The notes under the pieces are model-generated. The model did not search any database and was not told the origin of the DNA. It saw only the letters and a list, made by a program, of their open reading frames with translations. This document shows positions 238 through 59,711 of a DNA stretch of 64,000 nucleotides, one piece after another (positions within the stretch are counted from its first letter, which is position 1; each line of letters opens with the position of its first letter). Source of the stretch: an uncultured Planctomycetota bacterium (GTDB lineage Bacteria; Planctomycetota; Brocadiia; CAIUPP01); contig CAIUPP010000054.1 of NCBI GenBank assembly GCA_903901045.1, positions 1-64,000 of the forward strand. Reading direction: 5' to 3'. The translations under genes and the position numbers were made by a program.

Positions 238-322
238 AAGTCGGGACACAATACTTTATCTCGCGCTAAAGCATGGCCTGATAACATGTTAGCGTTTTGT
301 AAAGTATTGTGCCCCGACTTTT
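238..322. repeat. REP hairpin (GTCGGGACACAATACTTTA type)
   Basis: The left arm GTCGGGACACAATACTTTA (240-258) pairs with TAAAGTATTGTGCCCCGAC (300-318). Inside, CGCTAA and TTAGCG extend the stem. The right end touches the stop codon of the GH57 gene (complement of 321-323), so it forms the 3' end of that operon. It is one of about ten copies in the window and is related to the repeats flanking the RAYT gene near 29.5 kb. Confidence 0.85.
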
Positions 323-26165: not shown

Positions 26166-26191
26166 AAGTCGAGACACAATATTTTCTCGCG
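26166..26191. repeat. Degenerate single-arm REP
   Basis: AAAAAGTCGAGACACAATAT matches the REP left arm with two changes; the right arm is missing. Confidence 0.7.
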
Positions 26192-26369: not shown

Positions 26370-27386
26370 TTGGCCAGGAAACCGCTGTCCGGAGGGAGAA
26401 GGCTCATCCTCGTCATTCTAACCACGCTTGGCGTCTGCCTGCTGGCGGGGATTGTCACCGTCTGGTACATCATCGGCATGCCCGGCCGCAGTTGGCGCGG
26501 CCCGCTGCCTGAGATGACGCCGCAGCAAAGGGCGCTCGAAGCGGCCCTCCGAAAGGACGTTCAGGCGCTGGCGGGGGAGATCGGCGACCGCAACCTCTAT
26601 CGCCTCGCCGAACTGGGCAAGGCGGCCGACTTCATCGACGCGCAGTTGCGCGCGGCGGGCTACTCCGTCACGCGCGAGACCTTCAGCGCGGACAAGAAAC
26701 AATTCCAGAACCTCATCGCCGAGAAACGCGGCGTCGCGCGTCCCGAGGAGATCGTCATCGTCGGCGCGCACTACGACACCTGCAGCAACCCCGGCGCCAA
26801 CGACAACGGCAGCGGCGTCGCCGCCATGGTCGCGATAGCCCGCGACATGGCCGGGCGTTCGCCGCAACGCACCGTGCGCTTCGTCGCCTTCGCCAACGAG
26901 GAACCGCCATACTTCCAGACCGAGGAAATGGGCAGCCGCGTCCATGCCCGTAACTGCCGCAAGCGCGGCGACCGCATCGTCGCCATGCTCACGCCCGAGA
27001 CCATCGGCTGCTACAAGGACGCCCCCGGCAGCCAGAAACTGCCCTATCCCTTCGGCGCGCTCTATCCTTCCACCGGCAACTACATCGCATTCGTCGGGAA
27101 CACAGCGTCGCGCTCCCTGATACGGCGCTGCGTCGGCACGTTCCGCCGCGCCGAGCCATTTCCCTCCGAAGGGGGCGCGCTGCCGGAATTTATCCCCGCC
27201 TCCGGCCTGTCCGACCAATGGTCCTTCTGGCAGGAAGGGTATCCCGGCCTCATGGTCACCGACACCGCCTTCTTCCGTTACGAGTACTATCATGCCGCAC
27301 AGGACACCCCCGACAAACTCCAGTACGACCGCATGGCGCGCGTCGTCGAAGGCCTCAGCGCCGTCGTCAGGGACCTGGCAGAATAA
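26370..27386 (+). CDS. M28-family zinc aminopeptidase, membrane-anchored
   Basis: 338 aa from the TTG at 26370, with GAGAGGGG upstream; the ATG at 26301 lies within a repeat element and is unlikely. One N-terminal membrane helix (RLILVILTTLGVCLLAGIVTVWYII) is followed by a M28 domain outside the membrane. Zinc ligands fit the family: H in VGAHYDTC, D in GANDNGSGVAA, the E-E pair in ANEEPP, a later acidic ligand, and H in YYHAAQDTPD. It releases N-terminal amino acids. The stop codon is directly followed by a REP element. Confidence 0.87.
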   Translation: MARKPLSGGRRLILVILTTLGVCLLAGIVTVWYIIGMPGRSWRGPLPEMTPQQRALEAALRKDVQALAGEIGDRNLYRLAELGKAADFIDAQLRAAGYSVTRETFSADKKQFQNLIAEKRGVARPEEIVIVGAHYDTCSNPGANDNGSGVAAMVAIARDMAGRSPQRTVRFVAFANEEPPYFQTEEMGSRVHARNCRKRGDRIVAMLTPETIGCYKDAPGSQKLPYPFGALYPSTGNYIAFVGNTASRSLIRRCVGTFRRAEPFPSEGGALPEFIPASGLSDQWSFWQEGYPGLMVTDTAFFRYEYYHAAQDTPDKLQYDRMARVVEGLSAVVRDLAE

Positions 27387-27508
27387 AGTCGGGACATAAT
27401 ACTTTATCTTGCCGCTAAGTTAAGTCGTGACATAATACTTTATCCCAACGCCAACCTATGTAACCATAATGTGTTAGCGCTTTATAAAGTATTGTGTCCC
27501 GACTTTAT
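27385..27508. repeat. REP element: single arm plus full hairpin
   Basis: A lone arm (27385-27406) overlaps the M28 gene stop codon. A full hairpin follows (27422-27508), with a GTCGTGACATAATACTTTA arm and TAAAGTATTGTGTCCCGAC. The inner GCGCT/AACGC-like bases are less symmetrical than in the copy at 240. Confidence 0.88.
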
Positions 27509-27592: not shown

Positions 27593-29314
27593 ATGAGCCT
27601 TCTGACGGTCGCCCTAACCTGCGCGGCGTTGTTCGCAGCCGCGTATTACTTTTATGGCCGGCTGCTCTCGCGGTGGTTCGGACTGAACCGCGACGCGCAA
27701 ACCCCCGCTGTCTCGTTACGCGACGACGTGGACTACGTCCCCATCGAGCCGAAATTTCTCCTCGGCCAGCACTTCTCCGCCATCGCCGCCGCCGGGCCCA
27801 TTGTCGGCCCGATCCTGGCCAGGATGATGTTCGGCTGGCTTCCGGCGCTGCTCTGGATCGTCATCGGCTCCATCTTCATCGGCGGCGTGCACGACTTCGC
27901 CGCGCTCGTGGCCTCCATCCGGCACAAGGCCGGCTCCATCGCGCAGATCATCCGCGAGCACATGACGCGCACATCCTACCTCCTCTGCATGATCTTCGTC
28001 TGGATTGCGCTGGTGTACGTGGTGGTCGCCTTCACCGACATTGTCGCAACCTCCTTCGTCGGGACCCAGACGCTGGAGAACGGCGTGATCGTCACCGGCG
28101 GCGGCATCGCCGCCAGCTCCATGATCTACCTTGTGCTGCCGGTCATCATGGGCCTGATGTTGCGGTTCACGAAGCTTTCACTGGGCGCTGCCACCCTGAT
28201 CTTCCTTCCGCTGGTCGGCGCCGCGATCTGGGCGGGGCAGTACATCCCGCTGGACCTCGCCTCCATGGTGGGGCTGAGCGCTGAGAACTCCGTGCGGTTG
28301 TGGGACGTTCTGCTCCTGGCATACTGTTTCGTCGCCTCGCTCGTGCCGATGTGGATACTCCTCCAGCCGCGCGGGCACCTCGGCGGCTACTTCCTTTACT
28401 GCGCGCTCGGCGCGGGGCTGTTGGGATTGCTCTTCGGCGGGCACGGCGTCGAGTACCCCGCCTTCATCGGCTGGAGCACAGCGCGCGGGGAGGCGCTCTT
28501 CCCCATGCTCTTCATCACCATCGCCTGCGGCGCCTGCTCCGGCTTCCACGCCCTCATCGCCAGCGGGACCACCTCCAAGCAGTTGAAGCGCGAGACCGAC
28601 GCGCGCCCCGTTGGGTACGGCACCATGCTGCTGGAGGGAATGGTGGCCGTCGTCTCCCTCTGCTGCCTGATGATGCTCCCGGCCAACAGCGGCATCACCA
28701 ACCCCAACTACATTTATGCCTCGGGCATCGGCAATTTCCTGCGGATCATCCACATCCCCGTCCTCCTCGGCATCTCCTTCGGGCTGCTGGCCTTCACCAC
28801 CTTCGTCTACGACACGCTCGACGTCTGCACGCGGCTGGGGCGCTACATCATGCAGGAACTTACCGGTTGGCAGGGGCAGGCGGGGCGGTGGGTCGCCACC
28901 GCCGTCACCGTCATCGTGCCGCTCTACTTCGTCATCCAGAAAGTCACCGACGCCGCCGGCCGGCCGATCCCCGCCTGGAAACTCTTCTGGCCCCTCTTCG
29001 GCGCGAGCAACCAGCTCTTGGCGGCGCTGACGCTGCTGGGGATCACGGTCTGGCTTTATCGCACGCGCCGGGCCTGGTGGGTCTGGCCGGTCGTTGGCGT
29101 GCCGGGGGCGTTCATGTACGTCATGAGCATGTGGGCGCTATTCGGCTTCATCAAGCAGGGGTTCTTCAAGCCGGTGGCCGAAGTGCGGCAGGTTCCGGGG
29201 GGCCTCGTCAGTTGGGTCGCCCTGTTGCTCGCGGGCCTGTCGCTCATGCTGCTGGTAGAAGCCGTGCGCGTCCTCATCAAAGTGCGCCGCGAGCCGGCGA
29301 ACGAAAAGTCGTGA
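27593..29314 (+). CDS. cstA: CstA-family carbon starvation / pyruvate-peptide transporter
   Basis: 573 aa with about 16 hydrophobic segments. CstA signatures include GQHFSAIAAAGPIVGPILARMMFGWLP near residue 55-80 and HALIASGTTSKQL at ~322-334. Family members take up peptides or pyruvate during carbon limitation. The last two residues (KS) and the TGA stop are encoded by the arm of an adjacent REP hairpin, so the original C-terminus was probably slightly different. Confidence 0.9.
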   Translation: MSLLTVALTCAALFAAAYYFYGRLLSRWFGLNRDAQTPAVSLRDDVDYVPIEPKFLLGQHFSAIAAAGPIVGPILARMMFGWLPALLWIVIGSIFIGGVHDFAALVASIRHKAGSIAQIIREHMTRTSYLLCMIFVWIALVYVVVAFTDIVATSFVGTQTLENGVIVTGGGIAASSMIYLVLPVIMGLMLRFTKLSLGAATLIFLPLVGAAIWAGQYIPLDLASMVGLSAENSVRLWDVLLLAYCFVASLVPMWILLQPRGHLGGYFLYCALGAGLLGLLFGGHGVEYPAFIGWSTARGEALFPMLFITIACGACSGFHALIASGTTSKQLKRETDARPVGYGTMLLEGMVAVVSLCCLMMLPANSGITNPNYIYASGIGNFLRIIHIPVLLGISFGLLAFTTFVYDTLDVCTRLGRYIMQELTGWQGQAGRWVATAVTVIVPLYFVIQKVTDAAGRPIPAWKLFWPLFGASNQLLAALTLLGITVWLYRTRRAWWVWPVVGVPGAFMYVMSMWALFGFIKQGFFKPVAEVRQVPGGLVSWVALLLAGLSLMLLVEAVRVLIKVRREPANEKS

Positions 29315-29484
29315 CACAATACTTTATCCCGACGCTAACCCGTGTGGTCGCAGCAGGTTACCGCCTTGTAAAGTATTATGTCCCGACTTTATGGCCATAA
29401 GTCGGGACACAATACTTTCGCCCATTGCTGGCGCACGACGTTGCAGTACGCTGAACCATGAAGTAATATTATGTCCCGACTTTT
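29306..29484. repeat. Two consecutive REP hairpins upstream of the RAYT gene
   Basis: Hairpin 1 is 29306-29390 (GTCGTGACACAATACTTTA / TAAAGTATTATGTCCCGAC) and includes the cstA stop codon. Hairpin 2 is 29399-29484 (GTCGGGACACAATACTTTC / AATATTATGTCCCGAC). Loops differ in sequence, so the arms are conserved, not the interior. Confidence 0.9.
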
Positions 29485-29508
29485 CAATGGGGAGGGGGCG
29501 TCTGGCAC

Positions 29509-30192
29509 ATGGGAAGATTATCGCGTGTCGTCATTCCGGATTGTGCGCATCATGTGACCCAGCGTGGGGTGCGATCTCAGCCGGTCTTCTCCGACGATGC
29601 AGACCGCCAACTGTATCTGCGTCTGCTGATCGAGGAGGGGGACAAGCACGGGCTGAAATTTCTATCCTGGTGCCTGATGGCCAACCATGTGCACTTCATA
29701 GTCGTGCCTCGGAGTTGCGAGAGCCTTGCCGGCGCGTTTGGGGAAGCGCATCGAAAATTCACATGGCGCATCAACCGGCGCGAAGGGGTGCGCGGATATC
29801 TCTTCCAGGGTCGGTTCTTCTCCTGCCCTTTGGACGAGGCGCATGGAATGGCTGCCGTTCGATACGTCGAGCGAAATCCGGTTCGCGCCGGGTTGGTGGA
29901 GCAGGCTTGGGAGTATCCTTGGTCAAGCGCGGGGTTCCATGCCGGCGAGCGGGCGCGGGATCCCCTCGTGGCTGACCGTGACTTGGTGGGGACCGCGCAG
30001 GAATGGCGCGAATGGCTTCTCTCCGATCCGGAAGATATGCCCGCATTGCGAAAAGCAACCAGCACCGGCCGGCCGTGCGGAGACGCGCAATTCGTCCGGA
30101 GAGTCGAGCGTGTGACGGGTCTCGACTTACAGGACAAGCGGATGGGGCGGCCCCCAATAAAGTCGGGACATAATACTTTATCACAACGTTAA
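29509..30192 (+). CDS. REP-associated tyrosine transposase (RAYT, Y1_Tnp)
   Basis: 227 aa. It has the TnpA_REP/IS200-like core: VTQRG near the start, the HUH-type pair H60-V-H62 in MANHVHFIVVP, a YLFQGRFFS motif, and the probable catalytic tyrosine Y119 in RYVERNPVRAGLV. RAYTs nick single-stranded REP palindromes and are thought to mobilise them. The gene is enclosed by three REP hairpins and its last ten codons (KSGHNTLSQR) are read from the downstream REP. This is the likely source of the dispersed copies. Confidence 0.93.
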   Translation: MGRLSRVVIPDCAHHVTQRGVRSQPVFSDDADRQLYLRLLIEEGDKHGLKFLSWCLMANHVHFIVVPRSCESLAGAFGEAHRKFTWRINRREGVRGYLFQGRFFSCPLDEAHGMAAVRYVERNPVRAGLVEQAWEYPWSSAGFHAGERARDPLVADRDLVGTAQEWREWLLSDPEDMPALRKATSTGRPCGDAQFVRRVERVTGLDLQDKRMGRPPIKSGHNTLSQR

Positions 30193-30245
30193 AAGGTGTT
30201 GTAGCAAGGTGTTACGGTAGTGTAAAATATTGTGTCCCGACTTTA
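30159..30245. repeat. REP hairpin downstream of the RAYT gene
   Basis: Arms GTCGGGACATAATACTTTA (30162-30180) and TAAAATATTGTGTCCCGAC (30223-30241). It overlaps the RAYT 3' end and reaches to six bases before the GGAGGA ribosome-binding site of the next gene. Confidence 0.9.
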
Positions 30246-36231: not shown

Positions 36232-36274
36232 GTGGGGACACAAAACTTTCCTTTGAAAAGTATTGTGTCCCCAC
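36232..36274. repeat. REP subtype 2 hairpin (GTGGGGACACAA)
   Basis: A short hairpin has arms GTGGGGACACAAAACTTT (36232-36249) and AAAGTATTGTGTCCCCAC (36257-36274), with only about seven bases of loop. The terminal GTGGGG/CCCCAC replaces the GTCGGG/CCCGAC of the main family. It lies ten bases after the DMT stop. Confidence 0.88.
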
Positions 36275-59530: not shown

Positions 59531-59555
59531 CGGGGGGCCGGTGGGGACACGGGCC

Positions 59556-59600
59556 GGTGGGGACACAATACTTTCCAAAGGAAAGTTTTGTGTCCCCACC
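59556..59600. repeat. REP subtype 2 hairpin (GTGGGGACACAATACTTT)
   Basis: Arms GGTGGGGACACAATACTTT (59556-59574) and AAAGTTTTGTGTCCCCACC (59582-59600). Preceded by a partial arm at 59540-59550. Same subtype as 36232-36274. Confidence 0.9.
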
Positions 59601-59711
59601 TGGGCCACGTGAACCTCAACACGCTGTCACGATGGTTTCAACGGGGCAAAACAGCTTCTATTGCTCCGTCCCGCTCTTGTATGCTCCGCGCGCTGCGCGC
59701 ACAATAGAGTT

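Follow-up and report, generated by a model that had tools for sequence, protein, structure and literature searches.

It has long been asked how REP- and TIR-associated transposases mobilize their repeats, and a locus of an uncultured Planctomycetota bacterium poses the question once more. Within a stretch of 64,000 nt (the window), a gene for a Y1/HUH transposase lies among palindromes that recur across the genome, and a sequence-only reading had taken gene and palindromes for a REPtron, that is, a RAYT with its own REPs. Here, we consider to which class the transposase belongs, how its repeats are distributed, and what the tandemly repeated pieces at the ends of such elements suggest about the action of the enzyme.

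The transposase and its class

The 227-aa HUH/Tyr protein noted in that reading was borne out: the gene (Table 1) encodes the catalytic H60-V-H62 and Y119, and its product is matched by PF01797 (Pfam Y1_Tnp) with 28.6 bits against a cut-off of 23. Alignments of 16 and 30 sequences, across which H60, H62 and Y119 are invariant, mark the motifs N59-H60-V-H62, F99-Q100, the Y119-VERN-P124 region and S139-S140. In the structure model (pLDDT 89.4), the closest fold is that of the E. coli REP transposase 4er8, followed by IS200/IS605 enzymes, and the C-terminal extension is helical; no Pfam HTH match was obtained in 16 family members. The C-terminal residues are encoded by the gene's own 3' palindrome (30162-30192), and tail residues 221-227 are disordered in the model (pLDDT below 50). 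The genome holds one full copy of the transposase; two C-terminal look-alikes on contig C11 and a weak match on C7 were considered and rejected as second copies. A second, distant Y1-type protein is also present in this genome (L034; weak match, E 6e-4), with no arms of the transposase family described here within its locus.

TnpA-Y1 subclass 2.1, which according to its authors is probably the TIRYT group of Di Nocera (Quentin 2018, PMC6006769), is characterized by NHVH, Y---NP, WQ/FQ, a conserved SS and a length of ~238 aa (PMC6006769), by terminal inverted repeats with GGGGWSAS (PMC6006769, PMC3733652), and by a C-terminal helix-turn-helix-like domain. The protein motifs and length of this subclass are present in the 227-aa transposase, and the end motif occurs as GGGGACAC in the short form of the element and, one base off, as CGGGACAC in the long form. 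The GT[AG]G foot of REPs is absent, the arms ending in GTCG, GTGG, ATGG or CTGG within the palindrome, and the NCBIfam REP-transposase model NF047646 scores 62.8 bits, below its cut-off of 80. Since motifs, length and end motif fit subclass 2.1 while the REP hallmarks fall short, the transposase and its ends very probably constitute a TIRtron (TIRYT type, TnpA-Y1 subclass 2.1). A canonical REPtron would likewise comprise a Y1/HUH protein in a single full copy with palindromes near the gene and across the genome; the Y1/HUH transposase with its own palindromes stands as first read, whereas canonical REP/RAYT membership does not, being highly improbable in view of the missing foot, the over-long palindromes (~76-84 or 43 bp), the NF047646 score, the TIRYT end motif and the subclass 2.1 protein motifs.

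Palindromes in the window and across the genome

At up to 3 mismatches, the 19-base arm has 17 matches in the window, compared with 0 in 100 shuffles. Arms lie at 240-258/300-318, 26168 (half), 27388, 27424/27485, 29308/29369, 29401 (with a degenerate partner at ~29463), 30162/30223 and 34170/34227, so the arm coordinates first given were correct to a few bases. The two hairpins described upstream of the gene and the one overlapping its 3' end are confirmed as three long palindromes, and the "subtype 2" placed at 36232 and 59556 is the 43-bp form (Table 1). A degenerate half reported at 2695 has a match at ~2697, but a weak one of just 13 bases. Likewise, the copies listed at 27385 and 27422 exist as same-strand arms (27388 and 27424), but not as two separate REPs; they are better read as one complete element with a truncated end unit in front of it, an example of the end iteration discussed below. 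Seven palindromes were folded as single-stranded DNA, and each is more stable than its shuffles (z -3.4 to -11.3). With gene positions taken from open reading frames and not from curated annotation, the long palindromes of the window are intergenic, and several lie directly 3' of a stop codon. The TGA stop (29312-29314) of a CstA-like gene (27593-29314) is itself supplied by the upstream palindrome.

Table 1. The transposase gene, palindromes and end units of the window (window coordinates; strand given where assigned).
Feature	Position	Strand	Evidence
Dispersed long palindrome	238..320		Arm matches, fold z -7.6
Half element, single arm	26166..26185	+	Arm match
Truncated end unit directly preceding a complete element (long-form stutter)	27386..27421	+	Arm match
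Dispersed long palindrome	27422..27505		Arm matches
Long palindrome 1, upstream of transposase; overlaps stop codon of preceding gene	29306..29389		Fold z -3.4
Long palindrome 2, upstream; the left end of the transposase element probably lies in its first arm	29399..29482		Fold z -4.4
Y1/HUH transposase gene, TIRYT type, 227 aa	29509..30192	+	ORF, PF01797, invariant catalytic residues, fold
Long palindrome 3; codes for the last protein residues; the right end probably lies in its second arm	30160..30243		Fold z -5.6
Dispersed long palindrome directly 3' of a stop codon	34168..34247		Fold z -11.3
Short form, 43-bp hairpin	36232..36274		Arm match, fold z -5.7
Stutter unit GGGCCGGTGGGGACAC, 9 nt of flank and a truncated tip, ahead of short element	59535..59550	+	
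Short form, 43-bp hairpin	59557..59599		Arm match, fold z -8.6

Dispersal of the copies, already claimed from the window, extends to the whole genome (4.77 Mb, 154 contigs), where 231 arms were found at up to 1 mismatch (control pattern, 1) and 115 are exact, with clustering near the gene. In a sample of 86 elements, among about 100 places listed from the genome-wide arm search, the dominant form is a 43-bp hairpin, GTGGGGACACAATACTTTC-CAAAG-GAAAGTTTTGTGTCCCCAC; the long form measures ~76-84 bp and has AAGTCGGG feet in the window copies. These gene-less elements consist of two inverted ends around a spacer, a REPIN-like structure. The long form is concentrated around the gene: 9 of the 20 exact long-type arms in the genome fall in the window, which represents 1.3% of it (P 2e-12, or 2e-6 after the arms at the gene are left out). 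Nearly all 43-bp hairpins, for example the one at 59557-59599, keep one mismatch between their arms (AATAC versus AAAAC), by which the two strands can be distinguished. At one place (L027, G000:C23:196483-196679), three short hairpins form a tandem array that repeats every 91 bp.

The arm is specific to the source genome. In keeping with the association between transposase and repeat that had been claimed, it does not reach comparable numbers in the 391 other genomes of the phylum, each of which holds 0-2 exact arms as opposed to 115 here, and 111 of which carry a relative of the transposase at E<=1e-15. The single other genome of the same family encodes a 57%-identical protein, and a different tip occurs in it in several copies, some of them close to the ends of contigs. 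One exact arm each was also seen in two virus contigs (L301, L302), and a search of Rfam at its gathering thresholds found nothing.

A second repeat family, with the TIR TTGCTCTGTTGAAACCAT, has 142 ends in the same genome at up to 2 mismatches. Its inner modules are mosaic, and several contigs break inside it (e.g., L237-L266; window 59620-59660). Of 75 short hairpins, 32 border on sequence of this family on at least one side, so part of the genome-wide copy number is likely passive. It may even be that amplification of the 43-bp hairpin inside the other family, and not transposase activity, sets the genome-wide number, a reading that we regard as possible but somewhat doubtful: 13 of the 75 hairpins have only the 6-7 nt core and 30 have neither, and the long form, to which it does not apply, sits outside that family and clusters near the gene. 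The recent activity first proposed is borne out only in part: most of the genome-wide number comes from near-identical 43-bp copies, many of which lie in or beside the TTGCTCTGTTGAAACCAT family. Flanks were also compared by eye for target-site duplications, and none was consistent. Inverted flanks at both element ends reach a score of at least 6 in 4 of 32 cases versus 0.19 expected, but are not general, and their excess in the source genome partly reflects a common AAA/TTT context.

Iterated truncated ends

In the sister genome, element ends first looked as if they were preceded by flank, truncated tip, the same flank, a longer tip, and so onward, and the same iteration was seen in a single-contig genome. 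This stutter, the tandem repetition at element ends of a host flank (~10 nt) together with a truncated piece of the tip, was counted in 80 relatives with named hosts as a direct repeat of at least 10 nt with its second copy directly against the tip. GGGACA served as the anchor for the ends and was picked after the pattern had been seen; one later set was gathered regardless of GGGACA. Against a null in which upstream sequence is drawn from elsewhere in the same locus, 30 of the relatives' 140 ends stutter (0.35 expected). In the source genome, 11 of 156 ends do so (0.95 expected), one of them at window 59535-59550, and at the ends of a different repeat family, not matched for hairpin strength, none of 21 was found. 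At the threshold used, most ends do not stutter: the share that does is between a fifth and a quarter among the relatives and 7% in the source genome.

As most of the relatives come from draft assemblies of metagenomes, in which contigs break at repeats, the pattern could in principle be an assembly artefact. This is extremely improbable: in single-contig genomes, a set chosen for presence of the protein and not for its ends, plus five loci read before, 15 of 56 ends stutter, compared with 2.06 under a null that neighbouring tips inflate; the isolate Pacificimonas pallii carries 13 units on a 734-kb contig; and the same anatomy recurs across unrelated assemblies. A literature search, with most subscription papers outside its reach, found no earlier description of the stutter, which is new as far as that search extended.

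The anatomy of the units is asymmetric. Among 32 adjacent units, the flank part measures 10.2 nt (sd 1.75), whereas the tip part, at 6.5 nt, varies more (sd 5.3); that is, the start is nearly fixed, at 10.2 +/- 1.8 nt outside GGGACA, and the end is variable. For randomly placed junctions, the sd of the flank part averaged 4.65, with a minimum of 2.38 in 20,000 draws. In the longer units, the commonest tip part is 6-8 nt. The clearest array, that of Pacificimonas pallii, has truncated units that start with AGTTC[CT] (12 of the 13 unambiguous) and carry tip prefixes from none to 15 nt, followed by a complete end. The outer flank, F, differs between families: some conserve it, whereas in others it looks like host sequence, so part of F may belong to the element. 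Independently, a similar, sharp boundary is seen in the dispersed copies: the 43-bp elements with no TTGCTCTGTTGAAACCAT family beyond them have in common GGGCCG to the left and CTCGACC to the right, with little further out, so their common sequence ends 9 nt (left) and 10 nt (right) outside GGGACA, and the breakpoints of dispersal coincide with the distance at which stutter units start.

At each end, GGGACA stands between F and an inner segment ~11-17 nt inside, and the two may pair. Complementarity between flank and inner tip reaches a score of at least 6 at 20 of 141 ends versus 7.0 with swapped flanks, a comparison that loses weight because the ends share ancestry and fall into two registers, and it is concentrated on one diagonal. 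In the source genome, 14 distinct ends have a stem of 5-7 bp (AAAGT/ACTTT), in some cases extended by matching neighbours. Pairing was rejected as a uniform rule, since only some families obey it and its register shifts by one base from group to group. By analogy, the arrangement resembles the guide of IS200/IS605 elements. Separately, the left end of many relatives often has a TTGACA resembling a -35 box ~20 nt inward, so the end may carry the promoter of the transposase.

A possible origin of the iterated ends

Mobilization in trans, guide pairing, and a cycle of nicking, extension and rejoining are what we infer from these sequences. Gene-less derivatives, two ends placed back to back, would be mobilized in trans by the transposase; the inner segment would serve as a guide that pairs with F, as at IS200/IS605 ends; and the transposase would nick one strand 9-10 nt outside GGGACA. 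Either the element would then move, or a short extension of the free 3' end would run through F and into the tip, after which it would be rejoined with the 5' end that the tyrosine holds, leaving one extra F plus truncated tip, and repeated cycles would yield the observed arrays. Such a cycle would explain why units start at a fixed distance but end variably, and why they contain host-derived bases, and we place its likelihood slightly below even. A somewhat more tentative proposal is the general one that subclass 2.1 Y1 transposases may iterate their own ends in place by nicking 9-10 nt outside GGGACA, copying and rejoining. Taken as a whole, the reading of this locus as a TIRtron with trans-mobilized gene-less derivatives and with nicking, extension and rejoining at its ends has, in our estimate, a probability of about 0.6.

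Two other origins of the arrays have to be weighed. Replication slippage would produce tandem copies without a transposase if palindromic ends stalled the polymerase and the nascent strand slipped back. Palindromes are known to provoke slippage, G-rich tips provide microhomology, and a few stutter units have extra bases at their joints; however, slippage predicts neither the near-fixed start nor the variable end, and many units (tip part 2-8 nt) stop before the inner pairing segment, so that the nascent strand would be unable to fold there. With the absence of stutter in the unmatched control family also weighing against it, slippage appears unlikely. Alternatively, truncated elements may have inserted again and again into one favoured target next to an existing copy, and each copy would make a new adjoining target because the flanks resemble the pairing target. 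This we consider quite improbable, since every unit would have to be cut within 0-32 nt of its end, without the far end, and none of the listed units shows a far end.

Should end iteration by nicking, extension and rejoining prove correct, its fixed-start footprint predicts the nick to a few bases. Subclass 2.1 is widespread in bacteria, and in the accessible text on it no cleavage site is named and no rule for target choice is given (PMC6006769, PMC3733652); the footprint, if true, could be read in genomes of many phyla and would give the cleavage site of these enzymes, and short tandem repeats adjoining such elements could be read as a record of activity.

Among known systems, the IS200/IS605 elements (IS608, ISDra2) have the catalytic fold in common with the transposase described here. 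Recognition of a flanking site by an internal guide is established for IS608, and the complementarity at the present ends may point to a similar guide. The two differ in that all members here have Y---NP in place of Y---Q, a C-terminal extension and long inverted repeats, and we know of no stutter at IS200/IS605 ends. The RAYT/REPtron and REPIN systems (PMC2817692, PMC3116915) also combine an HUH/Y1 protein with gene-flanking palindromes and gene-less back-to-back derivatives, and tandem REPIN clusters with flanks have been reported in Pseudomonas (PMC2817692, PMC3116915); here, by contrast, there is no GTAG tag, and the repeated unit is a flank plus a truncated single end and not a whole REPIN. 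The closest match is the TIRtron/TIRYT group (Di Nocera 2013, PMC3733652; Quentin 2018, PMC6006769), which, as far as the accessible text of these papers extends, shows the same protein motifs, length, GGGGWSAS and self-complementary ends, together with moderately abundant genomic repeats of the end. Compared with that group as there described, the present locus adds iterated end units, which the same text does not mention (PMC3733652, PMC6006769), and a repeat population that is larger, genome-specific and composed of two forms.
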